Source: Clostridioides sp. ES-S-0010-02
GTDB taxonomy: Bacteria > Bacillota > Clostridia > Peptostreptococcales > Peptostreptococcaceae
Reading direction: 5' to 3'
NCBI GenBank assembly: GCA_020641055.1
Contig: CP067345.1
Location: forward strand, 71,001-135,000
DNA: 64,000 nucleotides
The position numbers and the translations under genes are program-made. A model generated the notes under the pieces. The model searched no databases. It was not told the origin of the DNA and saw only the letters and a program-made list of their open reading frames with translations. Shown one piece after another: positions 11,161 through 25,210 of the stretch (position 1 is its first letter; every line of letters starts with the position of its first letter).

Positions 11161-12093
11161 TTAGAATATTAAATTAATTAAATCTATGTAATTCGGATAA
11201 TTTTCTAAAATATTGTTTTTTATTTCTTGTTTATCAAAATCTACTTCTATTAATTTATCCATATTGACTATACCATCTATACAAGAAATAAAACATTTTG
11301 ATATTTTCCATTTATTAACATGTAAATTGATTTTCCTTCTATTGTCAATTGGTAAAACTATTTGAAACTTAGGCGTTTTATTATATATCCATTCTGTTTT
11401 TTTATATTTATCTTCTACCAGATTGTATACACTTTTGATATCATCATCGTCTAATTCAATTTCTTTTATATTTTTTATATTATTTTTTATATAATCAACA
11501 CAATAATCTAAAAAATAGTTTATATCTTTTTTGAGTAGAAAATTAATATTTGTAACTTTACTTGAAACAGACTTAGTTGCCTTTGATTCTGTTGATTTAT
11601 CTGAATTTAAATACTTAGTTAATTTATTTAAATCTGAATCATAAAGAAGAGTTCCATGATAAAGAGAATTTTGCCTTTTTATAGATTGTGCAGAGCCAGA
11701 AATTTTTTTACCATTTAAAAATAAATCTTTTCTTTCTGTTATAGATACATTTAATCCCAATGATAAAAGCATACTTTGCATAAATTTAGTATGTTCTAAA
11801 AAATCGATTTCATGAAGATTCCTATTTTTTTGTATAAATGACATATTGATATTTCCTAAGTCATGATACACAGTACCTCCACCAGATATTCTTCTTAAAA
11901 TGGGAATTTCACCATTTTCAATAACATCATAATGTATCTCCTGATATGGATTTTGATTTTTTCCTATAAAAATAGATTCTTCATTTCTCCATATGATTAT
12001 GATATCATCATTATATTTCTCATTTAAAAATAGATACTCTTCTAGAGCTAAATTAAAGTAAGGATTGGTGTTTTTGTTTAATAAGTAATACAT
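11161..12093 (-). CDS. lplA: Lipoate-protein ligase A
   Basis: Activates free lipoate with ATP and attaches it to lipoyl domains. RRISGGGTVYHD at 67-78 is the lipoate/biotin ligase signature and GKKISGSAQ (K130 region) holds the catalytic lysine. 310 residues with the small C-terminal accessory domain. AAAAGGAG precedes ATG 12093. It has its own terminator. A likely client is the lipoyl domain on the acetoin complex E3 encoded 8 kb upstream; the glycine-cleavage H protein, if present, would be another. The pairing with the acetoin operon is inference. Confidence 0.93.
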   Translation of the reverse strand: MYYLLNKNTNPYFNLALEEYLFLNEKYNDDIIIIWRNEESIFIGKNQNPYQEIHYDVIENGEIPILRRISGGGTVYHDLGNINMSFIQKNRNLHEIDFLEHTKFMQSMLLSLGLNVSITERKDLFLNGKKISGSAQSIKRQNSLYHGTLLYDSDLNKLTKYLNSDKSTESKATKSVSSKVTNINFLLKKDINYFLDYCVDYIKNNIKNIKEIELDDDDIKSVYNLVEDKYKKTEWIYNKTPKFQIVLPIDNRRKINLHVNKWKISKCFISCIDGIVNMDKLIEVDFDKQEIKNNILENYPNYIDLINLIF

Positions 12094-12270: not shown

Positions 12271-12921
12271 TTACTTATCCTGACCATACACATTAAGAAA
12301 TACATTTCTAGCCCTTTGAACTTCTTCATCTGGTAATAATACTGGTGTCCCAATTGATTTTGCTAAATAATATACTTTTGCTGCATCTTCTAACATTACA
12401 GCTGCGGTAAGTGCATGCTTTACAGATGGACCAACTGCAATTACTCCATGATTTGCCAAAAGACATGCTCTCCTATTACCTATTACATCAATAACACATT
12501 TTCCCATCTGATTAGATGTTGGTGGTGAAAATTTTGCAACTGGAACTGAACCTCCTACCTCATTTGCAAGAGTTGTACTTGCACACTCTATAGACTCATT
12601 TAAAATTGCAAAGCAACTTGAATATGTAGAGTGTGTATGTATTATACTATTTATATCATCTCTATGTTTATATATATATAAGTGGTCTGGTGAATCTACT
12701 GATGCCTTCCATTTACCATCTACAGTATTTCCATCTATGTCTATTAAAACAATATCACTTGGTGTAAGATTTCTATAATCCATTCCACTTGGTGTGATTG
12801 CTATATATCCAGTTTCTTCATCTCTTCCACTTACATTTCCTCCTGTCAATGTAACCAAATTATAGTTTAGAAGGTCTAAAGACGCTTGTAATACCTCTTT
12901 TCTCAAATTTTCTAATAACAT
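12271..12921 (-). CDS. fucA: Class II aldolase/adducin-family sugar-phosphate aldolase (FucA-like)
   Basis: Zinc aldolase of 216 residues, typical of L-fuculose-phosphate aldolase and relatives that split a ketose 1-phosphate into DHAP and an aldehyde. Zinc ligands are H95 and H97 (HTHS) and H158 (NHG); the phosphate loop TGGNVSGR is at 26-33. At the position where E. coli FucA has its catalytic Glu (PSSE), I read SVDSPDH, so Asp may replace Glu; this alignment is by eye. GGGAGG precedes ATG 12921. It is the last gene of the PTS operon, so its substrate is probably the product of the imported polyol or sugar; which one cannot be told. Confidence 0.85.
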   Translation of the reverse strand: MLLENLRKEVLQASLDLLNYNLVTLTGGNVSGRDEETGYIAITPSGMDYRNLTPSDIVLIDIDGNTVDGKWKASVDSPDHLYIYKHRDDINSIIHTHSTYSSCFAILNESIECASTTLANEVGGSVPVAKFSPPTSNQMGKCVIDVIGNRRACLLANHGVIAVGPSVKHALTAAVMLEDAAKVYYLAKSIGTPVLLPDEEVQRARNVFLNVYGQDK

Positions 12922-13095
12922 TAGCTAAATCCTCCCATTTATTAGAAACATAGTTCTATATGTTCCTGTTATATATCTTACACAATAAGATTTTATTTCC
13001 GCTATTTTAATTGAAAATTCTAAAAAATCTTTATAAAATTTAAACTTATCTACTTATACTAAATATAAGCCAATTTTAATTTGAAATTTTCATTT

Positions 13096-13569
13096 TTATA
13101 GTTCATTACTCTTTAATCTTTTATTTCTAAATTTTAATGATTCTGGATGCAAACATTCTTCTAATTCAATAAAATAATTATATAGTTCTGTATTGTCATT
13201 AAACATGTTTGTTTTTATCCAATATCTCCCCTTAATAAAACTACCATCATTAATTTTTAGATACATTTTTTTGTCATGAAATTCTCTTATTCTTATTTTT
13301 TTTATATCTTTAATTTCATACTCATGTGTAGAATTAAATGAACTAAAATATATATATTTATTGTTCATAGTAATCATGTTAGGATTACTTGAGGATACAA
13401 AAGTATTAAATATTCCATAAGTACAAATAACTATCATCAAGCTATATATATTAATACTAGGATTTATATAATTATTAAATAGTGCATAAATCAATATTAA
13501 AATCATAAAAATCCCTGGTATTGTTACACTAACTATATATCTTTTAGAATCATATATATATTTTTTCAT
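13096..13569 (-). CDS. Small two-span membrane protein with possible PH-like cytosolic domain
   Basis: 157 residues. Two hydrophobic segments (about 12-32 and 41-58) are followed by a mostly beta-rich soluble part (KYIYFSSFNSTHEYEIKDIKKIRI...) resembling bacterial PH-like domains of membrane proteins; the family call is tentative. It lies between the PTS IIC gene and the aldolase in the same direction with an AAGGAG site before ATG 13569, so it is probably part of the operon, yet no role in sugar uptake is obvious. Confidence 0.7.
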   Translation of the reverse strand: MKKYIYDSKRYIVSVTIPGIFMILILIYALFNNYINPSINIYSLMIVICTYGIFNTFVSSSNPNMITMNNKYIYFSSFNSTHEYEIKDIKKIRIREFHDKKMYLKINDGSFIKGRYWIKTNMFNDNTELYNYFIELEECLHPESLKFRNKRLKSNEL

Positions 13570-13598
13570 AATTTATACACTCCTTAATAAAATTACAT

Positions 13599-14954
13599 TT
13601 AAGCTTCATCTTGTGTAGATAATACTTTATTTTCCTTTATTATTCTACTTCTATTATAGATAGCCATCCCTAAAGCTATAACTGCCAAAATTATTCCTCC
13701 AATTACTTTGTAATTCATAATTTTTACAAATACCCAGCTTAGTGGATTTGCTCCATCACAAATACTTGAAATCATAGTTGCTCCTTCAGGCATTTTAAAG
13801 CTTGCATTTAAAGCCATTTGAGTAAATAGTGGTGCTAAATTAGTTGCTATTAATAGCCCAGAAGTAATAATAACTATTCCTATTATTAAAGTTCTAAATA
13901 CATTTCCTTTTGTAATTGGAACGATTAAAACAAGTGCAAATGGTATTACAGCTAAATCTGCAAATGGTAAAACTTTATTACCTGGTAATATAGCTGCTAT
14001 AACTATAGTTAGAGGCACTAGTACTAATGCAACTGACAATGTAACAGGGTGTCCTATTCCTACTGCAGAATCTAAACCGATGTATATTTTACCTCTATTT
14101 TTAAATCTCTTTTCAATAAATTCTTGTGCTGCCTCTGATACTGGCAACAAACCTTCCATTAATAAAGCCGCCATTTTGGGAATTAGTATTAAAACAGCTC
14201 CCATAGTTATCCCTAACTGCAATATACCTTTTATGTCATACTTGGCTGCAATACCAATTATTATCCCTATTAAAGACCCCATTATTAAAGGTTCTCCAAA
14301 TAGGCCAAATTTTTTTTGTAATGTATCAGCATTTATTTCAATTTTATTTATCCCTGGAATCAAATCTAATACTTTATTTACAACTATAGCAATTGGAACA
14401 AATGCTTGTGTAAATCCATGAGGAAGAGATATACCTGGCATCCCTAAGTATTCTTCTATCCCTGGGGCTGTTAAGTCTGCCATTACTAAAACAATTACCA
14501 TATTTGCTACTGCTGCAAATACTCCCCACATAACACTTTGCGTAGCCCCTGCCACCAAAGCTCCTGTAAATGCAAAATGCCAGTAATCCCATATATCTAC
14601 ATCGACAGTTTGAGTTGTATTAGTAATTAACATAACTATATTTACTACAAGCCCTATTGGAATAATTAAAGCACCCACTGTTGATGCAAAAGCTATAGCT
14701 GATGCTGCTGGCCATCCAACATCTATTATGGATAGGCTTAATCCTAAGTTCTTAACCATTTGTTGTGTAGCTGGACCTAAGTTATCTGTTAACAAAGCTA
14801 TAATAGTATTAAGACCTATAAATCCAACTCCTACTGTTAAACCAGCTCTTAAAGATTTTCCAAGCTTTGTACCTAATATCAAGCCAAAAATACATATTAT
14901 TATTGGCATCATTACTTGTGCACCCAAACCAACAATGAAATTTAATATCGCCAT
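13599..14954 (-). CDS. gatC-like: PTS galactitol-family transporter subunit IIC
   Basis: Integral membrane channel of the EIIC-GAT family, 451 residues, with about ten to twelve hydrophobic segments. The opening (FIVGLGAQVMMPIIICIFGLI) and the motif GMPGISLPHGFTQAF are typical of GatC proteins. It receives phosphate from the IIB encoded next to it and moves its substrate in phosphorylated form. AGGAGG precedes ATG 14954. GAT-family systems carry galactitol, other polyols or related sugars; the adjacent aldolase fits a ketose-phosphate product. Exact substrate unknown. Confidence 0.9.
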   Translation of the reverse strand: MAILNFIVGLGAQVMMPIIICIFGLILGTKLGKSLRAGLTVGVGFIGLNTIIALLTDNLGPATQQMVKNLGLSLSIIDVGWPAASAIAFASTVGALIIPIGLVVNIVMLITNTTQTVDVDIWDYWHFAFTGALVAGATQSVMWGVFAAVANMVIVLVMADLTAPGIEEYLGMPGISLPHGFTQAFVPIAIVVNKVLDLIPGINKIEINADTLQKKFGLFGEPLIMGSLIGIIIGIAAKYDIKGILQLGITMGAVLILIPKMAALLMEGLLPVSEAAQEFIEKRFKNRGKIYIGLDSAVGIGHPVTLSVALVLVPLTIVIAAILPGNKVLPFADLAVIPFALVLIVPITKGNVFRTLIIGIVIITSGLLIATNLAPLFTQMALNASFKMPEGATMISSICDGANPLSWVFVKIMNYKVIGGIILAVIALGMAIYNRSRIIKENKVLSTQDEA

Positions 14955-15031
14955 CTAAATTTCCTCCTTCATTTAATTTTCAGTCTCTAAAACCGCAAGA
15001 TTTTAGAGACTATTTCATTTAAAAATTCAAA

Positions 15032-15319
15032 TTATAATTCTAATTTTTCAAGAACTTCTTTGATTAATTTATCCATTCCTACTCCAGTTAAAAAAGGCAG
15101 TCCATTTATTACAGGTGTTTTTATACTACTAGATATTTGTGTAGTACAGATTATTAAATCATAATCTGGTGCTTTTGAAGCTACCTCTACTACTTTACAT
15201 TGTGTAATACTAACCCTATCTAATTTACCAGCTTCTTCTAATGCCTTCTTTAACTTGTTTATAGCAATTGTTGAAGTACATACTCCTGTTCCACATGCAA
15301 CTAATATTTTTTTAGCCAC
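15032..15319 (-). CDS. gatB-like: PTS galactitol-family subunit IIB
   Basis: Cytosolic phosphocarrier of 95 residues. The phospho-acceptor Cys is C9 in ILVACGTGVCTST (a second Cys at 14). I start at GTG 15319: GGGGGTGA lies at proper distance, whereas the ATG at 15334 overlaps that ribosome site. It lies between IIA and IIC and accepts phosphate from IIA. The activator at the head of the operon carries a related GatB-like domain of its own. Confidence 0.9.
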   Translation of the reverse strand: MAKKILVACGTGVCTSTIAINKLKKALEEAGKLDRVSITQCKVVEVASKAPDYDLIICTTQISSSIKTPVINGLPFLTGVGMDKLIKEVLEKLEL

Positions 15320-15415
15320 ATTATTCACCCCCATTAAAATTATTTTATTTTTAAAGATATCTGTAATTAGAAATCTTTGATAACTTTTTATATTTTTAAT
15401 ACTATTTTTGTATGT

Positions 15416-15880
15416 TTAATTATTCAACTTAGAATTTAATAAATTACTTAAACTTTCTTCTCTTAAATCAATAATATTATTTAACATATTTTCATCTTGG
15501 AATATGGTCATAAGTCTTTCTAATAGTTGTAATTGCTCTTGTGGCTCTTTAACTGCCAGCATAAATATAACCTTTACATCAATTTCAGTGTCATCTGTAC
15601 CCATCATTATGAATTTTACAGGTTTATTTAATATGCCAATAGCTATCCCTGGTTCATTTACATGGACTATATCTGTATGCGGTATTGCTACTCCATAGAT
15701 TCCTGTTGGCAGTCCTGTAGCATATTTTTTCTCTCTTGCTATAACTGCTTCTATATAACTTTCTTTTACATATTGTTCGTCAAACAAACGTTGTCCTAAA
15801 AACTTCAAAGCATCTTCATTACTTGATACCTCAATATCTTTAAAAATTAAATTACTACTGATTATTTGCATTGACTCCAT
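15416..15880 (-). CDS. PTS subunit IIA, fructose/mannitol type (EIIA-2)
   Basis: Phosphotransfer protein of 154 residues with the active-site His at 68 in GVAIPHTD, the signature of EIIA-2 domains. It takes phosphate from HPr and hands it to IIB. Its start codon lies inside the end of the activator gene (26-bp overlap; ATG 15880, with ATG 15871 as alternative), so it is translationally coupled to the regulator. The regulator itself ends in a domain of the same kind. Confidence 0.92.
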   Translation of the reverse strand: MESMQIISSNLIFKDIEVSSNEDALKFLGQRLFDEQYVKESYIEAVIAREKKYATGLPTGIYGVAIPHTDIVHVNEPGIAIGILNKPVKFIMMGTDDTEIDVKVIFMLAVKEPQEQLQLLERLMTIFQDENMLNNIIDLREESLSNLLNSKLNN

Positions 15881-18806
15881 CTAATATCATCTCCCTAATA
15901 AAATCTCTATCTTTAATGTTTTTAATTTTTTTAAATTCATCTGTTTCTATAAATGTAAGTAGAGTATTCAATGGATTAAAACATTTCTGGTCTACAGCTA
16001 GTAGAAGTATTATTTTTACTTTGTTTTTACTCCATACAATAGGATTTTTTAAGATAGCTATGCTTATTGCTGGTCTGATTACATCAATCCCATCTGTATG
16101 AGGTATTGCTATTCCGTCTGACAACTCAGTTGGAAATAAATTATCTCTTTCCACTACTTTTTTATAGAAATTTTTTGTTACATAGCCTTTTTCTCTAAGT
16201 TTTTTGCTCATGTATTTAAGTACTTCTTCTTTTGATTTAATTTCTAAATCTACAAATATGTCTTCTTTTTGGATTAAATCAGATAATTCATATTTTTTAT
16301 TTGTTTTAGCAATTTGATTTGTATCAATTAAGTTATTTATTTGATTTAATTTTGTTTTATCATTAATGTCTACTAGGCTAAAAAATGGGATGTTTGGTAT
16401 CTGAGGGTCAATTGTTCCAACTATTGCGATTACATTTTTTTCATTACTTATTTGTTTTATCTCTAAATCAAGACTTGGATATTCAATCATACCAATAGTC
16501 TCTATATCAACCTTTTCATTTATCCCTTTAATGCTTTCCTCTAAACTTTGCTTTATCTTGCAAGCTCCTCCTAATCCAGTAATACATAATGTTACAATTA
16601 TAGGCTTTCTATTGTCTACTTTTGAGTTGTTCTCTTTGCTAACTTTATCTTTTACTAATGGCTCTATATTTTTAACTTCATCAACTATCTCATCTATTGT
16701 TAAATCTGGTAGAACTGCTCTTCGTATGACTTCTATACAGAGTAATGTATCAAATCTAGATATTGTTCTTATATCAATCCCTGTTTTTCCAGAGATAATA
16801 TCTCCAAAGTACGAAAGGGAACCCATATCAACTAATATAATTACTCCTCTTCCTTCATCAATATCTTTTATTACAGTAGTAGCTTCTTCAATCATTTCTT
16901 CTGGCTTTTTCTCAAATGGCATATCCAAATACCTTGCATGATTAATACCTAATAACTTATTGGTAACCTCACATACAGATGACGCGACTCTTCCATGAGC
17001 CATTAGAAGTACACCTATCTTTTTTTGTTCAGAAATTTCTCCTCTACTACTCATTTTAAAATATATTGCTATTATACCTATTTCTTCTTTTGGCAAATTT
17101 ATATTGTATCTTTCCTTTAAATGTTGTGCTACCTTTTCTGCTACAGAATACTCTAATGGATAGTTTCCTATTATCTCTTTTAAATGAGCATTTGATATTA
17201 CTTTTCCTTCTTTTAATCTTTCAAAAGCTGCTTTTAAATGAATTGCTAGACATAAGTGTAGATTTGGTTCTAATGAATTAAGATACTGTGATGCTATTTT
17301 GATTACTTCACAAGTTAACTCTACAATGTATTTTCCAACAATCGGACTTATATCAGGTAAATTCTCAGTGATAGAAACTTTCTTAACTTGTTTTATGTAC
17401 TTCTGAATACAGCTTTCTAATTCTCCTCCAACAATCCTGTTAATAACATCAAAGTCTAAACCTTGTTCTAATAAATCAATGTGTCTCCTTTCAGTAAGCT
17501 TGTATATTTCATCTGGGAAAGTATATATATCTTCATTTTTCTTTTCTATCTCAACTTGAAGGTCTGAATCTATAATTAAATCTCCATCTACATAATTTTC
17601 TATCTTTCCTCTACAATTTCTTATCCTTATTAGACCTTGTTTCACATACCCAGGTACATCTGATATATTTATAGTTACTTCTTTTTGTTTATTTGTAAGT
17701 TGATTTAATAGTCCTCTAGCACAAGCTACTTGAATATCACTTCTAAGCTGACCTACATTTCCTATACAATCGTAAAGCATAAGAGCTTTTAAGACATCTG
17801 ATTTTATGTGTATGTTTGCTCCCATTCGTTGGGCTTCTATCAAGAAAAAATTGTTTATAATGTCAAATCTTTCGTTTAATGGTCTTGCAACTAATTCTGG
17901 GATTTCAATTGTCACAGGTATACGTCTTTTAAAGGTATTAAGTAAATGAGAATCTATTGGCTCAGAAGTTGCAGAAATAATCATTACATTTATTTTATTT
18001 GTAAGCTTTGTTTCTCCTAATTTTCTAACCATTCCTTTATCAATCAATTGAAAGAGTATTTCTTGACCTTCATAAGGCAATCTATGTATTTCATCTATAA
18101 ACAATATACCCCCATCTGCTTTTGATACTAATCCTTCTTTAGTTTCATCAGCTCCTGTAAAAGCACCCTTAACATGACCAAATAATTGAGATAACAAAAG
18201 TTGTGGATTTTCTGAGTAGTCTGCTGCATTGAAAACTATAAACGGTGCATTTTTAGGAAATCTAGATGATTCTACTGCAAAGTTATACATGCACTCTGCT
18301 AACTCGCTTTTTCCAACACCAGTTGGACCCATAATAATAGTATGCAACCCATGGGGAGGATAAAGTATAGCTGCCTTAGCTAATTTGACGATTGTACTTA
18401 AACTTCCAGTACTTCCTATTAATTTATCAAAGGCCACATCTATTTTTTCTTCTTTAGCATTTAGTTCCTCTTTTTTATCATCATTTTCTTTATCATGTTT
18501 TAAATCACCAGAATCTTGGATTTCTTTTAAATACTGTATAACTGTAAATCTTGATACAGTAAATCCAATACTATTTAATCTTCTTGTTATATCATTTTTA
18601 TTTATATTTTTTTCTTCTTTTACAATATCTTTTATAGCTTTAATCAAAACAACTTTTCTTCTTTGTCTAGAATCTTCTATTTTTAATTCATTTCTTAAAA
18701 AGGTAACGTCTTCTCTTCGAATATTTAACATACTTGAAATTGCTTCATCTGTTAAAGGATTTTTCTTATCTTCATTTTCAATTAAGCTTTTTATTCTTTG
18801 CCTCAT
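15855..18806 (-). CDS. LevR-type sigma-54-dependent activator with PRD and PTS domains
   Basis: 983 residues. In order: N-terminal winged-helix DNA-binding part (about 1-100); AAA+ domain with Walker A GPTGVGKS (160-167), sigma-54 contact loop GAFTGA (214-219) and Walker B GGILFIDE (232-239); PTS regulation domain (about 485-590, H517/H523); EIIA-Man-like domain with H604 (MAHGR); GatB-like domain with C741/C749; C-terminal EIIA-2 domain with H903 (AIPHTD). It should open sigma-54 promoters in response to PTS phosphorylation state. The gene is first in the PTS operon and sits directly behind a sigma-54 promoter, which implies autogenous activation. AAGGAGGG precedes ATG 18806. Confidence 0.95.
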   Translation of the reverse strand: MRQRIKSLIENEDKKNPLTDEAISSMLNIRREDVTFLRNELKIEDSRQRRKVVLIKAIKDIVKEEKNINKNDITRRLNSIGFTVSRFTVIQYLKEIQDSGDLKHDKENDDKKEELNAKEEKIDVAFDKLIGSTGSLSTIVKLAKAAILYPPHGLHTIIMGPTGVGKSELAECMYNFAVESSRFPKNAPFIVFNAADYSENPQLLLSQLFGHVKGAFTGADETKEGLVSKADGGILFIDEIHRLPYEGQEILFQLIDKGMVRKLGETKLTNKINVMIISATSEPIDSHLLNTFKRRIPVTIEIPELVARPLNERFDIINNFFLIEAQRMGANIHIKSDVLKALMLYDCIGNVGQLRSDIQVACARGLLNQLTNKQKEVTINISDVPGYVKQGLIRIRNCRGKIENYVDGDLIIDSDLQVEIEKKNEDIYTFPDEIYKLTERRHIDLLEQGLDFDVINRIVGGELESCIQKYIKQVKKVSITENLPDISPIVGKYIVELTCEVIKIASQYLNSLEPNLHLCLAIHLKAAFERLKEGKVISNAHLKEIIGNYPLEYSVAEKVAQHLKERYNINLPKEEIGIIAIYFKMSSRGEISEQKKIGVLLMAHGRVASSVCEVTNKLLGINHARYLDMPFEKKPEEMIEEATTVIKDIDEGRGVIILVDMGSLSYFGDIISGKTGIDIRTISRFDTLLCIEVIRRAVLPDLTIDEIVDEVKNIEPLVKDKVSKENNSKVDNRKPIIVTLCITGLGGACKIKQSLEESIKGINEKVDIETIGMIEYPSLDLEIKQISNEKNVIAIVGTIDPQIPNIPFFSLVDINDKTKLNQINNLIDTNQIAKTNKKYELSDLIQKEDIFVDLEIKSKEEVLKYMSKKLREKGYVTKNFYKKVVERDNLFPTELSDGIAIPHTDGIDVIRPAISIAILKNPIVWSKNKVKIILLLAVDQKCFNPLNTLLTFIETDEFKKIKNIKDRDFIREMILDGVNANNQ

Positions 18807-19100: not shown

Positions 19101-19140
19101 ACCCCTTTTGTATAAATAAATACATTTATACAAAAGGGGT
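19101..19140 (-). terminator. Terminator after the acetoin operon
   Basis: ACCCCTTTTGTATAAAT and ATTTATACAAAAGGGGT form a long perfect stem; on the minus strand it is followed by TTTCTTTTT. It lies 55 bp after the E3 gene. Confidence 0.9.
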
Positions 19141-19195: not shown

Positions 19196-20926
19196 TTATT
19201 TTTTTGGTAAATGTAAGCATTCACCACTTACATCTGCTAAAGCTTCCATCAGAGCTTCTGAAGTACATGGGTGACCAAAAATCAAGTCACTAGCTTCATC
19301 AGCAGGTATTTCTAATGCTTTAAATGATGCTGCATGATTTATAAGTTCTGCTACACCATATCCAAACATATGCACACCTAAAATTTCCCCATACTTAGCA
19401 TCTGATATTACTTTTACATATCCTTGCTCTTGTCCAGAAGCTAAAGCTCTTCCATTTCCAGCAAAGTTAAATTTACCAATTTTTATATTATATTTTTGTT
19501 TAGCATCTTCTTCTGTAAGTCCAACTGATGCAACCTCTGGAACTGTATAAACACAACTAGGTAATGCACTTAAATCTGCTTCTTCATTCATACCTAAAGC
19601 ATTTGAAGCTGCTACTTCTCCCATTTTAAAAGCTGCATGAGCTAGCATTATACCTCCAGTAACATCACCTACTGCATATATACTTGGTACACTTGTTTCC
19701 ATTTTGCTATTTACAACTATTGAACCTCTATCTATTTTAATATCTAAGTCTTCTACACCAGATAGATTAGCTTGTCTTCCTATAGCATATAGACCTAAAT
19801 CTGCCTTTATTGGTTCTTCTCCTTCAATACATACTATTATTTTATTTCCTTCTTCTTTAAATTCAGAAACTTTCTTTTCAGTTAATATAGTTATTCCCTT
19901 TTTCTTAAGTGAATCTCTTAAAGACTGGCTCAATTCTTTATCCATTCTTGGAATTATTCTGTCTTCCATTTCTATTATAGTTACTTTAGAACCTCTTGAG
20001 TTGAATATCTCTGCAAATTCACAACCTATTACTCCACCACCAATTATTACTAACTCTTCTGGTACTATGTCTAAATCTAAAGCTTCTGTACTAGTTATTA
20101 TTAATTTTGATTCTATTCCTTTTATTGGTAAGATTCTCACCTTAGAACCAGTGGCAATTATTGTATTTTCTGTATCTAAAACTTTTCCATCTGATAATAT
20201 TACTTTATGGGCTTCTTTAACAGTAGCTTTAAGATTAAAGACATCTACACCTCTGCTTTTTAACAATCCACCAACACCAGCTGTAAGTTTTTTTACTACT
20301 CTATTTTTATACTTTATAGCCTTTTTTATATCTTGTTCCTTATCAACAGATACTTTTACACCTCTTTTTGATAATTGTTCAATTTCTTCTAATATTTCTA
20401 CTGTTTTTACATAAGTTTTTGTAGGAATGCAACCTCTATTTAGGCAAGTTCCTCCTAATGTGTCCTCTTCTACTAATGCAACTTTGCCTCCTAATATAGC
20501 TGATTTTAGTGCTGATAAATACCCTCCAGGTCCTCCACCTACTACTACCACATCATAATCATGATTACTCTCTTTTTTAATTGTCTTTTCTTCTTTTATT
20601 TCTATTTTTTCTGTTTCAACAATTAAATCTTCTTTTGATACGTTTCCAGATAAGTATTTAGCCTTTATTTCTTCTTGCTTTTCTCCCTTTTCTGCTATTA
20701 CACCTATTACTGTAAATACTGGTAATACTTCTCCTTCTTCTTTATGTATAATTGCAGCAAGTATACCTTCTCCTTCTGATTCTATTTCCATGTTGACTTT
20801 ATCTGTTGTTATCTCTAGTATAGGTTCTCCAATTTTTACTTCTTCGCCTTCTTGTTTTAGCCAAGATACTATAGTACCTTCTTCCATAGCTACTCCAGCT
20901 TTTGGCATTATGACTTCTACTGACAT
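19196..20926 (-). CDS. acoL: Dihydrolipoamide dehydrogenase (E3) with N-terminal lipoyl domain
   Basis: 576 residues against about 460 for plain E3. The extra N-terminus (1-80) is a lipoyl domain with the modified Lys at 43 (TTDKVNMEIES), joined by a charged linker (about 85-120, KEEKTIKKESNH). The flavoenzyme follows: FAD loop VVVVGGGPGG at 126-135, redox disulfide C161/C166 (GGTCLNRGCIPT), a second nucleotide-binding loop (VIIGGGVIGCEFAE) and a C-terminal dimer domain with the catalytic His (HPCTSEALMEA). It reoxidises dihydrolipoyl groups with NAD+. The E2 of this operon has no lipoyl domain, so this one appears to serve the whole complex. AGGAGG precedes ATG 20926. Confidence 0.95.
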   Translation of the reverse strand: MSVEVIMPKAGVAMEEGTIVSWLKQEGEEVKIGEPILEITTDKVNMEIESEGEGILAAIIHKEEGEVLPVFTVIGVIAEKGEKQEEIKAKYLSGNVSKEDLIVETEKIEIKEEKTIKKESNHDYDVVVVGGGPGGYLSALKSAILGGKVALVEEDTLGGTCLNRGCIPTKTYVKTVEILEEIEQLSKRGVKVSVDKEQDIKKAIKYKNRVVKKLTAGVGGLLKSRGVDVFNLKATVKEAHKVILSDGKVLDTENTIIATGSKVRILPIKGIESKLIITSTEALDLDIVPEELVIIGGGVIGCEFAEIFNSRGSKVTIIEMEDRIIPRMDKELSQSLRDSLKKKGITILTEKKVSEFKEEGNKIIVCIEGEEPIKADLGLYAIGRQANLSGVEDLDIKIDRGSIVVNSKMETSVPSIYAVGDVTGGIMLAHAAFKMGEVAASNALGMNEEADLSALPSCVYTVPEVASVGLTEEDAKQKYNIKIGKFNFAGNGRALASGQEQGYVKVISDAKYGEILGVHMFGYGVAELINHAASFKALEIPADEASDLIFGHPCTSEALMEALADVSGECLHLPKK

Positions 20927-21083
20927 AGGCTATCCTCCTATTTATTTTTTATATATTTTAGTTAATCATCTTATATTCATACAGATATCTTTTACATACA
21001 ATAATTTTAAATCTAGTAAAATTAAATACATCTTTTTATGTGGTCTATTCAATCTATTTACATAAAGAGTAAAATATCAAAAC

Positions 21084-22130
21084 CTATACGAGCATTGCTA
21101 ATGGATTTTCTAATAATTCTTTTAAATCTTTTAAGAATTTTGCTGCTACTGTACCATCTATTATTCTATGGTCTGATGTTAATGATAAATTCATTATAGG
21201 TTTTATTTTAGCCTCTCCATTTACTGGCACAAACTTATCTTGAGTTGCTCCTACCCCAAGTATCGCACTTGAAGGCATATTTATTATAGGTGTAAATGTC
21301 GTTATACCATACATTCCAACATTGCTTATAGTAAATGTATTACCTTCTTGGTCTGCTGGTAGAAGCTTTCCTGTTTTTACTTTTTCAGCAAGTTCTTTGC
21401 TTTCTTTGGCTATTTCTTTTAGCGATTTTTCATTTACATTTTTTACTACTGGGACATATAAACCTTCATCTAGTCCAACAGCAATAGCTATATTTATATC
21501 TTTATATCTAAATATTCCATTATCTGTCCATGCTGAATTTAATGCTTGATGCTTTGGAAGTACTCTAGATACAGCCATTACTATTAAATCTGTCATTGTT
21601 AATTTTACTCCAGTTGATTCTTTTACTGTATCTATTAATTTTGCTCTAAGTTCTTTAAGTTCTGTAGCATCTACCTCTATATTGAATGTAAATACAGGAG
21701 CACTGAAGTAGCTTTCTGACATTCGTTTTGCTACAGTTGCTCTCATTGGATTTGGCTTTTCGAACTCTCCTTCTACTGTATTAAACGTACTTAAATTCTC
21801 ATGTTTTGATTTTATTTCTTTTGTTTCGTTAGATTTAGATACATCAGTTGATACGATAGTCTCTTGTGTATGTGCCTTTTCTATATCTGATTTTTTTATT
21901 TTTCTATTGTATCCAGTACCTACAACATTTTCTAAATCTATATTTAAATCCTCTGCTATCCTTTTTGCTAAAGGAGTTGCTTTTACTTTATTATTTTCTA
22001 GATAGTTTAACACATCCACTAGATGTATTCTTCCATTTTCTCCACTTCCAACCAGCCAATCTAACTCTATATTGTCTTTTCTTGCTTGGTTTTTGGCTGC
22101 TGGTGTGGCTTTTACTTTATTTGCCACCAT
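21084..22130 (-). CDS. acoC: Acyltransferase (E2) of acetoin dehydrogenase complex, lacking a lipoyl domain
   Basis: 348 residues. There is no lipoyl domain; the N-terminus begins straight away with two peripheral-subunit-binding repeats: KVKATPAAKNQARKDNIEL (about 5-45) and KVKATPLAKRIAEDLNIDL (about 48-88). After a linker, the catalytic acetyltransferase core (about 125-348) is complete with TSDHRIIDG (His 321, Asp 325). It should transfer the acetyl group from a lipoyl arm to CoA, but the arm must come from elsewhere, most simply the E3. GGGGGG precedes ATG 22130; the gene follows E1beta by 12 bp, so loss of a lipoyl part by a wrong start is unlikely. Confidence 0.93.
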   Translation of the reverse strand: MVANKVKATPAAKNQARKDNIELDWLVGSGENGRIHLVDVLNYLENNKVKATPLAKRIAEDLNIDLENVVGTGYNRKIKKSDIEKAHTQETIVSTDVSKSNETKEIKSKHENLSTFNTVEGEFEKPNPMRATVAKRMSESYFSAPVFTFNIEVDATELKELRAKLIDTVKESTGVKLTMTDLIVMAVSRVLPKHQALNSAWTDNGIFRYKDINIAIAVGLDEGLYVPVVKNVNEKSLKEIAKESKELAEKVKTGKLLPADQEGNTFTISNVGMYGITTFTPIINMPSSAILGVGATQDKFVPVNGEAKIKPIMNLSLTSDHRIIDGTVAAKFLKDLKELLENPLAMLV

Positions 22131-22142
22131 TTCTATCCCCCC

Positions 22143-23129
22143 TTATCTAACAATTAAAGATTTTATTGCATCTTCTATTTCATCAATTCTTGGGACTACT
22201 GCTTTTTCTAGCTCTGGATTATATGGTATTGGCACATCTTTTCCACATATTCTTTTTACTGGTGCATCTAAATAATCAAATGATTCACTTTCTGTTATTA
22301 ATGCTGATATTTCTCCACCTAGACCACCAGTCTTAGATGCTTCATGGCAAATTAAAACTCTACCAGTTTTACATACACTCTTTATGATTGTCTCTTTATC
22401 TAATGGATATAAAGTTCTTAAATCTATAATTTCTACATCTATATTTTCTTTTGATAGGTTTTCTGCAGCTTCTTCAACACTTTGTAACATCCTTCCATAA
22501 GTGATTACTGTAACATCAGAACCTTCTTTTTTAATATCTGCATTTCCAATATCAATTACATAATCTCCCTCTGGGACAATTCCTTTTTTTCTATATAACA
22601 ATTTGTTTTCAACAAATATTACTGGATTATTGTCTCTTATAGCTGCTTTTAATAATCCCTTAGCATCTGCTGGTGTTGAAGGTGCAACCACTTTTACTCC
22701 TGGTACATGACAAAACCATGCTTCCAAACTTTGTGAATGTTGTTCTGCTGAACCAGTTCCAGAACCTCCAGGACATCTAACAACCATTGGAACCTGAGCC
22801 TTCCCACCAAACATATATCTCATTTTTGCTGCTTGATTTACAATCGCGTCCATAGATATTGTAACAAAATCCATAAACATTACTTCCATAATCGGTCTTA
22901 ACCCAGTTGCCGCTGCACCTGCTGCTGCACCTGCTATAGCTGCCTCTGATATAGGAGTATCTCTTACTCTTTCTGGTCCAAATTCATCTATCATTCCCAC
23001 TGATACGCCAAATGCTCCTCCATATATCCCTATATCTTCTCCCATAAATATTACATTTTCATCTCTTCTCATTTCTTCTGACATTGCTTCTTTTATTGCT
23101 TGTGCATATGTTAATTCTCTTGTACTCAT
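22143..23129 (-). CDS. acoB: Acetoin dehydrogenase E1 beta subunit
   Basis: 328 residues, transketolase-like pyrimidine-binding domain and C-terminal domain of two-subunit 2-oxo acid/acetoin dehydrogenases. Typical segments: [52 protein letters not shown]. Together with the alpha subunit it binds thiamine diphosphate and cleaves acetoin to acetaldehyde plus an acetyl group on lipoate. GAGGAAAA precedes ATG 23129; it follows the alpha subunit by 24 bp. Confidence 0.92.
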
Positions 23130-23153: not shown

Positions 23154-24116
23154 TTAGTCTGCATATACATCATCTAATAAAGATTCTATTTTTGGATTTG
23201 GGCTATTTTGAGCAAATTCTACTGCATCTTCTATTGATTTTTTAGCAAAATCTTCAATTATATCTAATTCATTTTCATTTGCCATATTATTTTCTATAAG
23301 ATAATTTCTTAAAAATTTTATAGGGTCTTTTGCCTTCCACGATTCTATCTCTTCTTTCGTTCTATATACATTTGCATCTGATTTTGAATGACCTAGCCAT
23401 CTATAGGTCCTACTTTCAATTAATACAGGCCCTTCCCCTCTTCTACATTTTTCAGCAGCTTTTTGTACTGTTTCATATACTTCTATTGGATTATATCCAT
23501 CTATTGATATTCCTTCTATACCATAAGATGCTGCTCTTGTTGCAACACTATCTATATTCATGTGACGTTTTATACTTGTTGACATGCCATATAGGTTGTT
23601 TTCACAATAAAATATTATTGGTAATTTCCATATTGATGACAAGTTTATTCCCTCATGAAATGTACCTTCATTTGATGCACCATCACCAAAACTACATAAA
23701 ACTATTTTTCCTGTCTTTTTATATTGTTGTGTAAGTGCAGCGCCAGGAGCTATAGTAAGACCTCCACCTACGACTCCATTTGCTCCTAAGTTACCTGACT
23801 CAATATCTGCTATATGCATTGAGCCTCCTTTTCCTTTACAAAATCCAGTTTCTTTTCCCATAAGCTCAGCCATCATTTTATTTAAATCTATTCCCATTCC
23901 TATAAATTGGCTATGACCTCTATGAGTTAATGAAACCAAATCTCCTTTTTCTAGTGCCATTACTGCGGCTACACTTGAAGCTTCTTGACCTACTGATAAA
24001 TGAGTTGTTCCATGTACCATACCTCTTGCAAAAAACCAACTAACTTTCTCTTCAAACTTTCTAGCTTGATTCATTCTCTTATACATTTCAAGTAATGTTT
24101 CTTTTGATAATGTCAT
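23154..24116 (-). CDS. acoA: Acetoin dehydrogenase E1 alpha subunit
   Basis: 320 residues with the thiamine-diphosphate motif GDGASNEGTFHE...CENN (about 145-180). MVHGTTHLSVGQEASSVAA near residue 35 is characteristic of acetoin/branched-chain E1 alpha. The acetoin assignment rests on overall likeness and operon form; another 2-oxo acid substrate is possible. AGGAGG precedes ATG 24116. It is the first enzyme gene, after the regulator. Confidence 0.9.
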   Translation of the reverse strand: MTLSKETLLEMYKRMNQARKFEEKVSWFFARGMVHGTTHLSVGQEASSVAAVMALEKGDLVSLTHRGHSQFIGMGIDLNKMMAELMGKETGFCKGKGGSMHIADIESGNLGANGVVGGGLTIAPGAALTQQYKKTGKIVLCSFGDGASNEGTFHEGINLSSIWKLPIIFYCENNLYGMSTSIKRHMNIDSVATRAASYGIEGISIDGYNPIEVYETVQKAAEKCRRGEGPVLIESRTYRWLGHSKSDANVYRTKEEIESWKAKDPIKFLRNYLIENNMANENELDIIEDFAKKSIEDAVEFAQNSPNPKIESLLDDVYAD

Positions 24117-24153: not shown

Positions 24154-25107
24154 TTAGTCACAATCTTCTAATAATTCAAGTGCTAAACTGTGATTAATTG
24201 CTAAGCTATTTATAAATTTGGCTTTTAATGATGCTTTTATTGCTTCTATCTTTTCATCTCCTGAAGCAACACCTATTGTTCTTTTTATCTTTTTTAAATC
24301 ATTTAGTTTTACCCCTAGTACCCTTTGATTAAATTCAAGTATAGAAGTTTTTCCTTCCTTATCAAAAGCTTGCAAACAAATTGCGCCTATTGAGTTATAC
24401 TTTTTTAAATCATCTATATCTTCTTCATGCATATATCCAGAAGCCATTATTGTTGAGTTTAAACTCATAGGATTTCCTATACCTACAATTGCAATAGTTG
24501 TTTTATCTATTAAGTCTAGTACTTCTTTAATTTTTTCATCCTTACAAAGCTTTTCTTTTGTAGATAAATCAGACATCACAGCAGGAGCATGTAATAACTT
24601 AAAATCTCCTCCAAAAGCTCTTGCTAAACTTACAGCTATTTGATTTGCGTGTATATCTATTTCATTATCTCCAATTCCTCCTAGTAAAGGTATGAACGTA
24701 ACATTTTTACAGTTGCTTTTTTCTACATATCTAGGAATTTCTTTTAGAGTTGTTCCTATGGAAACCCCAATTATATCATTTTCTTTTACTACTCTGGTAA
24801 GATATTCAGACACAGCTCTTGCTAATTCTTGTTTTTGTGTTAATGAGTCTTGTTTATCATCTACCACTATTACTTCTTTCAATTTATATTTTCTTTCTAA
24901 ACTTCTTTCTATTTTTTGATAGTCATTTTTTAAAACATCAACTATTTGTATTTTTACTATTCCTTGCTCAAAAGCTTCTTTTAATATTCTTGATATTGTT
25001 GGTCTTGATATTCCCAATTGATTCGCTATTTCTTGTTGATTCAAATTATCTTCATAATAAAGTGAACAACACTTCATCATTAACCTTAAGTCTCCAATTT
25101 TTTTCAT
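24154..25107 (-). CDS. SorC/DeoR-type transcriptional regulator of the acetoin operon
   Basis: 317 residues. The N-terminal helix-turn-helix (about 8-55) reads QQEIANQLGISRPTISRILKE; the rest is a sugar-binding-type SorC effector domain (VIGVSIGTTLKEIPRY, TTIAIVGIGNPMS). ATG 25107 has GGAGGAAGG just upstream; the open frame to 25137 lacks a site. It heads the operon behind a sigma-A promoter. Acetoin operons are more often driven by the sigma-54 activator AcoR, so this class of regulator is notable. The effector is unknown. Confidence 0.87.
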   Translation of the reverse strand: MKKIGDLRLMMKCCSLYYEDNLNQQEIANQLGISRPTISRILKEAFEQGIVKIQIVDVLKNDYQKIERSLERKYKLKEVIVVDDKQDSLTQKQELARAVSEYLTRVVKENDIIGVSIGTTLKEIPRYVEKSNCKNVTFIPLLGGIGDNEIDIHANQIAVSLARAFGGDFKLLHAPAVMSDLSTKEKLCKDEKIKEVLDLIDKTTIAIVGIGNPMSLNSTIMASGYMHEEDIDDLKKYNSIGAICLQAFDKEGKTSILEFNQRVLGVKLNDLKKIKRTIGVASGDEKIEAIKASLKAKFINSLAINHSLALELLEDCD

Positions 25108-25180
25108 TTCCCTTCCTCCAAAATCAAGATTTTTCAATTATTTTTACATTTGTTCAATGATTTTACTTAATTTCAATAAC

Positions 25181-25210
25181 ATTATAGAAGGGGTTCGTAT
25201 AAAAAGTCAA
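25181..25210 (-). promoter_or_regulatory. Sigma-A promoter of the acetoin operon
   Basis: Minus strand: TTGACT (25210-25205), an 18-base spacer, then TATAAT (25186-25181), about 75 bp before the regulator start. TTGAA-containing stretches between promoter and gene could be operators but no clean dyad was found. Confidence 0.8.

Follow-up and report, generated by a model that had tools for sequence, protein, structure and literature searches.

A Clostridioides acetoin dehydrogenase-type operon with a lipoyl domain on its E3 and none on its E2

The DNA analyzed here, called the window, is a stretch of 64,000 nucleotides from Clostridioides sp. ES-S-0010-02 (assembly GCA_020641055.1, contig CP067345.1, positions 71,001-135,000 of the forward strand; the genome carrying it is one contig of 4.26 Mb). 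Its minus strand carries a five-gene operon, in the order regulator, E1 alpha, E1 beta, E2 and E3, in which both E1 chains, the E2 acyltransferase core and the E3 dihydrolipoyl dehydrogenase of a 2-oxoacid or acetoin dehydrogenase multienzyme complex are encoded together. The E2 was found to contain no lipoyl domain, and the E3 to carry one in front of its flavoenzyme part. We consider it probable, at about 84%, that these genes encode a working E1-E2-E3 complex whose only lipoyl swinging arm would be the one tethered to E3. That the arm on E3 would serve the complex had been put forward in the preliminary description of the window; the domain content, congeners in which no lipoyl-bearing E2 was found, the pairing of E2 and E3 types in related operons and the substitution ratios argue for this view.

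In textbook complexes, an N-terminal lipoyl domain is found on E2. The window E2 has none: at a threshold of E 0.001, Pfam returned only 2-oxoacid_dh and two stretches of E3_binding, the peripheral-subunit-binding domain (PSBD), and no Biotin_lipoyl. An E2 made of PSBD repeats and an intact acyltransferase core, as read earlier from the letters, was thus confirmed by domain search.
21084..22130, minus strand: E2 without lipoyl domain, 348 residues, PSBD-PSBD-acyltransferase core (Pfam; full-length match to NF011416, 345 bits, cut-off 429)
22005..22115, minus strand: first PSBD of E2, residues 6-42 (domain search)
21879..21986, minus strand: second PSBD of E2, residues 49-84 (Pfam E3_binding)
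21090..21755, minus strand: acyltransferase core of E2, residues 126-347, with DHRIIDG (Pfam 2-oxoacid_dh, E 1.8e-78)

The ATG of E2 lies 12 bases past the E1 beta stop codon, with a G-rich ribosome-binding site in between, and the entire open frame has 352 codons. Therefore no longer E2 start can reach a hidden lipoyl domain, and this candidate, already thought unlikely in the preliminary description, was rejected. Since no open reading frame (ORF) of 70 or more residues lies between the operon genes on the coding strand, there is no free lipoyl protein inside the operon. The acyltransferase motif HxxxDG is present as DHRIIDG. Furthermore, the window E2 matches the 347 positions of the NCBIfam model NF011416 colinearly from residue 1; with a score below the cut-off, it appears to share the layout of this family and would not be assignable to the equivalog itself.

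For E3, the earlier account of one lipoyl domain, with its lysine at residue 43, ahead of a normal flavoenzyme was borne out by Pfam and by the motifs.
19196..20926, minus strand: E3, dihydrolipoyl dehydrogenase with N-terminal lipoyl domain, 576 residues (Pfam; TIGR01350 over cut-off)
20696..20917, minus strand: lipoyl domain of E3, residues 4-77 (Biotin_lipoyl at 4-68, E 5.5e-14, 52.2 bits)
20798..20800, minus strand: codon of Lys43, predicted lipoylation site (aligned Lys column)
20561..20695, minus strand: linker of E3, residues 78-122, 45 residues, presumed flexible (between lipoyl domain and flavoenzyme)
19208..20560, minus strand: FAD/NAD/dimerisation part of E3, residues 123-573 (Pfam Pyr_redox_2 and dimerisation domain)

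The motif TTDKVN places the target lysine at residue 43. In the operon comparison described below, the corresponding column holds lysine in 126 of 127 lipoyl hits: on E2 (22/22) and on E3 (22/22) of operons in which both proteins carry the domain (two-arm operons), in operons with the domain on E3 only (20/20), in free lipoyl proteins (6/6) and in operons with the domain on E2 alone (56/57). The single exception, a hit of the home-made profile behind the core in L162, has no lysine and was discarded as a false positive; the class of L162 is unchanged. Searched alone, the E3 lipoyl domain matches 24 distinct PDB sequences, nearly all of them E2 or protein X (best E 4.4e-27). The redox disulphide motif of E3 is present as GGTCLNRGC and its His-Glu motif as HPCTSE, the latter read by eye after a regular expression had missed it. 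The operon thus has a lipoyl domain with its target lysine on E3 and none on E2.

The same E2 is present in 8/8 Clostridioides genomes (among 71 genomes of the family searched), and the E2 and E3 architecture of the window is the same in all eight. Ratios of nonsynonymous to synonymous substitution rates (dN/dS) were determined for seven Clostridioides pairs, the window being common to all and L113 excluded. They were 0.06-0.11 for the E2 core, 0.12-0.20 for the first PSBD and a looser 0.22-0.37 for the second; on E3, the lipoyl domain (0.00-0.07) is the most conserved part, and the linker gave 0.16-0.64, with identities of 69-73% in six of the seven comparisons and 93% to L111. Chance does not account for the arrangement, since the lipoyl-less E2 recurs in all eight genomes and no part of E3 is better conserved than its lipoyl domain. 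The same data bear on a decaying operon, in which the E2 lipoyl domain would have been lost by degradation and the complex would be inactive or only its E3 used. The window E2 does lack a domain that 77 of the 95 PSBD-bearing E2s in the comparison possess; however, the four enzyme genes are open at full length, their catalytic motifs are kept, the architecture is constant in the genus and the E2 core and E3 lipoyl domain have low dN/dS values. In addition, acoA, acoB, acoC and acoL of C. difficile 630 have consecutive locus numbers and RNA values that co-vary in a table excerpted from PMC9210968. Decay is therefore extremely unlikely.

To place the window operon among its relatives, 102 neighbourhoods of the same class with 103 E2 ORFs were compared (the window, L013, and 80 regions and 20 regions out of two longer listings), the domains of E1, E2, E3 and lipoate ligase being detected by home-made profile hidden Markov models. 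The pairing was all-or-none: the 18 PSBD-bearing E2s without lipoyl domain (eight from Clostridioides, including the window, and 10 others) all stand beside a lipoyl-bearing E3. Conversely, among the 40 operons with a lipoyl E3, in a sample enriched for short E2s, 22 also have a lipoyl E2 and 18 do not, eight of the latter being from Clostridioides; the earlier remark that lipoyl-E3 proteins usually occur alongside a lipoyl E2 thus holds narrowly, but fails for nearly half of these operons. Two PSBDs were found in 17 of the 18 lipoyl-less E2s and, since 62 of the 77 lipoyl-bearing ones have two as well, they are not peculiar to the window complex. A separate Pfam check of 10 other genomes and of genome G951 gave the same picture, with no lipoyl domain on E2 and one or two lipoyl matches on E3 in 11/11.

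From the table of 82 rows used for counting, eight E2 ORFs without PSBD were left out, together with six lacking a same-strand E3 within 5 kb (L118, L151, L152, L156, L158 and L197) and seven congeners that were collapsed. Six of the PSBD-less ORFs lie beside a free lipoyl ORF (L127, L128, L129, L144 and, twice, L130), L125 is a lipoyl E2 and L126 a contig-edge fragment; those without lipoyl domain that have a plain E3 within 5 kb are L126, one of the two in L130, and L144, the last two adjoining a free lipoyl ORF.

Two further layouts were observed in this sample. In L127, L128, L129, L130 and L144, E2 cores of 237-256 residues without PSBD or lipoyl domain adjoin a free-standing lipoyl protein of 78-94 residues. 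E1 alpha and E1 beta come directly behind in all but L144, in which they are at a distance of some 4 kb. Such a free lipoyl protein is a third way of detaching the arm. In L139 and L140, the E3 (669 and 679 residues) has two lipoyl domains in tandem and stands beside a lipoyl-less E2, which in L140 has a single PSBD.

Next, the lipoyl domains borne by E2 and E3 were compared in the 22 two-arm operons. Their tree has few columns and long branches, and only pairwise identities were used. Identity between the lipoyl domains of E2 and E3 averages 84% within an operon and 53% across operons, and in 15 of the 22, ties included, no domain matched better than the partner from the same operon. In L147 and L148, the two domains are 100% and 99% identical as protein and 97% and 96% as DNA, respectively, an identity which suggests, and would be explained by, repeated recent copying or gene conversion. 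Because the domains of the same operon are so alike, the lipoyl domain on E3 probably has the same partners as that on E2, and this likeness suggests that their roles are interchangeable. Another job for the E3 domain (a self-contained redox relay, regulation or an antioxidant function), besides or instead of catalysis, is conceivable in that E3 could in principle reduce its own tethered lipoyl group. Such a job would explain neither why PSBD-bearing E2s without lipoyl domain occur only where E3 has one nor the likeness of the two domains within an operon, and we regard it as very unlikely.

Several points weigh against E3 as the sole carrier of the arm. The sample was picked in part for short E2 frames (10/20 and 8/20 of two batches) and gives no prevalence. 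With the seven congeners collapsed, a lipoyl E3 accompanies 11/11 lipoyl-less PSBD-bearing E2s and 22/71 lipoyl-bearing ones, but the Fisher p value of 1.4e-5 is inflated by kinship, and a descent-corrected pair test comprises four pairs, too few for significance (sign test, median p 0.5; no pair in the opposite direction). In the remaining seven of the 22 two-arm operons, the own partner was not the best match. In 7/11 of the genomes outside the genus submitted to the separate Pfam check, other lipoyl-bearing frames of E2 size are also present. Finally, the genome carrying the window holds a second, lipoyl-bearing E2 as well as GcvH (sought in this genome only), either of which could in principle donate an arm.

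The second E2, of 421 residues, has a lipoyl domain, one PSBD and a core (genome C1:986971-988236). Its gene stands in a different locus, behind E1 alpha and E1 beta; two other ORFs and then a plain E3 of 466 residues come next. This E1-E1-E2-E3 locus (genome C1:984996-992267; L013:8997-16268) lies among ORFs that resemble, by eye, those of purine or xanthine metabolism. A lipoyl E2 elsewhere in the genome, named in the preliminary description as the finding that would speak against the reading, thus exists; its locus, however, is a separate one that also encodes E1 alpha, E1 beta and E3. This second E2 is present in six of the eight Clostridioides genomes, the window's included, and missing from G004 and G006, which keep the window operon.

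With the window E2 as query, one E2 each was found in G004 and G006, and a lipoyl search of both genomes found none on an E2. Besides the E3, this search returned frames of 160 and 1144 codons, which by size would be biotin carrier and pyruvate carboxylase, and two weak hits of 272 and 421 codons; the latter are not the second E2, because frames of such sizes are weakly hit also where the second E2 exists. For E1-E2-E3 complexes in these two genomes, the search gave no lipoyl-bearing protein other than the E3 of the operon. Of the 2944 bases in the E2-E3 block of G004, 2937 agree with a named C. difficile record. These results limit an explanation in which the second E2 or GcvH would lend its arm in trans, with an accessory part left to the lipoyl domain of E3. 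This explanation draws on the presence of both proteins in the genome and on the further E2-sized lipoyl frames of the other genomes. However, besides having its own locus and being absent from two genomes that retain the operon, the second E2 has a lipoyl domain only 44% identical to that of E3, and in G564, G647 and G951 no lipoyl E2 was found, the one additional Biotin_lipoyl frame there being of biotin-carrier size. Supply in trans is thus quite unlikely, with GcvH sought in the window's genome alone.

If E3 is the carrier of the arm, the complex could work as follows. Lys43 of E3 would be loaded by a lipoate ligase. E2 would contribute the scaffold and the acyltransferase site through its core, and docking places for E3, and probably E1, through its two PSBDs. 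The lipoyl domain, tethered to the docked E3 dimer by the 45-residue linker, would take up the acetyl group at E1, hand it to CoA at the E2 core site and then be re-oxidised by the active site of E3. A geometry unlike that of textbook complexes, put forward in the preliminary description, would be conceivable for such an arm. As a more tentative extension, the complex may be 'inverted', with E3 as the mobile carrier of the arm and each two-PSBD E2 chain docking E1 and arm-bearing E3 side by side, so that the number of arms would follow from E3 occupancy and not from E2 copy number; loss of the E2 lipoyl domain would then be possible only after its gain by E3, gene conversion keeping the copies interchangeable until one was lost.

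As to history, a quick tree of 95 E2 cores requires at least seven changes of the E2 state, four of them forced by well-supported branches; we infer its root and the direction of change. A supported group of 18 members unites the Clostridioides E2s with those of seven two-arm operons, of two operons with the arm on E2 alone and of one without an E3 in reach. This composition suits a loss of the E2 arm after the gain of the E3 arm. Most likely, a lipoyl domain would first have been copied onto E3 while E2 kept its own, and the redundant E2 copy would later have been lost in the Clostridioides ancestor.

For the supply of lipoate, a ligase gene is present in the window.
11161..12093, minus strand: lipoate--protein ligase (LplA), possible loader of the arm (TIGR00545, 283 bits, cut-off 280)
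We infer the link of this ligase to the complex; two further ligase-type genes lie elsewhere in the genome, and a ligase ORF was found in 20 of the 102 neighbourhoods and in four of the 18 with a lipoyl-less E2. Because no lipoyl synthase (LipA) exceeds the cut-off in the window's genome (best score 31 bits, against 310), lipoate is probably salvaged.

Among known systems, the acetoin dehydrogenase system of Clostridium magnum, likewise clostridial, was reportedly treated by Krueger et al. (1994). Matic et al. (2003), cited for Mycoplasma hyopneumoniae, speaks in its title of a novel lipoyl domain arrangement, and the title of Hakansson and Smith (2007) has a pneumococcal E3 'harboring its own substrate'. 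NF011416 (PRK14843), a dihydrolipoamide acetyltransferase model, resembles the window E2 from end to end, and we take this family and arrangement to be streptococcal. A single genome among 398 of the phylum, G951, exceeds the cut-off that the window E2 does not reach; like the window, it has a lipoyl-less E2 (347 residues, PSBD-PSBD-core) and a lipoyl-bearing E3 (568 residues), with LplA next door. The complexes of the two-arm operons share with the window the lipoyl-linker-E3 protein and nearby E1 alpha and E1 beta, but unlike the window, their E2 keeps its lipoyl domain.

The closest described parallel, in passages of PMC7873978, is M. hyopneumoniae, in which blots of cells show the E3 (PdhD) as the protein that bears lipoate, and its K42 was lipoylated in vitro by the ligase Mhp-LplJ, as determined by liquid chromatography-tandem mass spectrometry. 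Its lipoyl domain is on E3, as in the window; unlike the window complex with its aco names, it is a pyruvate dehydrogenase, and these passages do not state the domain content of its E2. They also name E3-borne lipoyl domains for Alcaligenes eutrophus and Neisseria meningitidis, and an E1-borne one for Zymomonas mobilis. Thus, an E3-borne arm is already in print for M. hyopneumoniae (PMC7873978), the lipoyl-less E2 layout already has an NCBI family model, and the novelty of the arrangement is lower than the preliminary description had assumed. Among the matches listed in our literature searches, no paper dealt with the lipoyl arrangement of the Clostridioides complex.

The other genes of the operon and its candidate signals are as follows.
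24154..25137, minus strand: sugar-binding-domain transcription regulator, first gene of the operon, presumably SorC/DeoR-like (Pfam Sugar-bind, E 7e-68)
23154..24116, minus strand: E1 alpha, thiamine-diphosphate dehydrogenase, 320 residues (Pfam E1_dh, E 8.2e-86; nearest NCBIfam TIGR03182, below cut-off)
22143..23129, minus strand: E1 beta, 328 residues (Pfam Transket_pyr and Transketolase_C; NF006667 over cut-off)
19101..19140, minus strand: terminator-like hairpin of 18 pairs behind E3 (scan: 2 such sites, 1.9 expected from shuffles)
25181..25210, minus strand: promoter-like site ahead of the regulator, 11/12 match (scan: 30 sites, 34.8 expected from shuffles)

In both scans, site numbers were not above those of the shuffled sequences. 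A structured RNA in the 157-base gap between E2 and E3 was rejected, its folding being worse than that of shuffles (z +1.96; 198/200 shuffles at least as good); in an alignment, this gap is best conserved at the end holding the ribosome-binding site. The acetoin label comes from the gene names acoA, acoB, acoC and acoL of C. difficile 630 in the excerpts of PMC9210968. Because the NCBIfam models place both E1 chains nearest pyruvate dehydrogenase (E1 beta over cut-off, E1 alpha below), the substrate of the complex is putative only.

The window E2 is 88-89% identical to that of four named C. difficile strains, and the E3 88.5-88.7% identical to the 12 best C. difficile records of the plasmid collection PLSDB; the identical five-gene order was found in one C. 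difficile record. At such identities, the source of the window is probably a sister species of C. difficile and not that species. Searching a phage collection gave 20 records, none reaching 60% identity. The region separating the aco operon from the lipoate ligase gene (window 12271-18806) holds genes of a phosphotransferase system (PTS), one resembling a class II aldolase and one for a sigma-54-type activator that has PRD and PTS domains, and the gene order of the C. difficile record matches this region. The 12 best PLSDB records for the E3, L231 among them, are 96-150 kb long and entered as plasmids of C. difficile. One record, NZ_CP149712.1, marked circular, contains the entire operon together with PTS genes, lplA, ispD, ispF and prolyl-tRNA ligase genes, and looks like an excised circle or a chromosome segment mislabelled as plasmid.

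Operons of this kind are a natural experiment on the possible anchoring sites of the lipoyl arm, and their comparison suggests that the arm can move between the subunits of the complex as long as one copy stays in the operon. The recurrent pairing of E2 and E3 lipoyl domains in this class was not met as a statement among the matches listed in the literature searched. As to annotation, a protein named dihydrolipoyl dehydrogenase bears the only arm that was found for E1-E2-E3 complexes in G004, a genome of the C. difficile type. Therefore, an anti-lipoate blot should show E3, near an estimated 62 kDa, and not E2.

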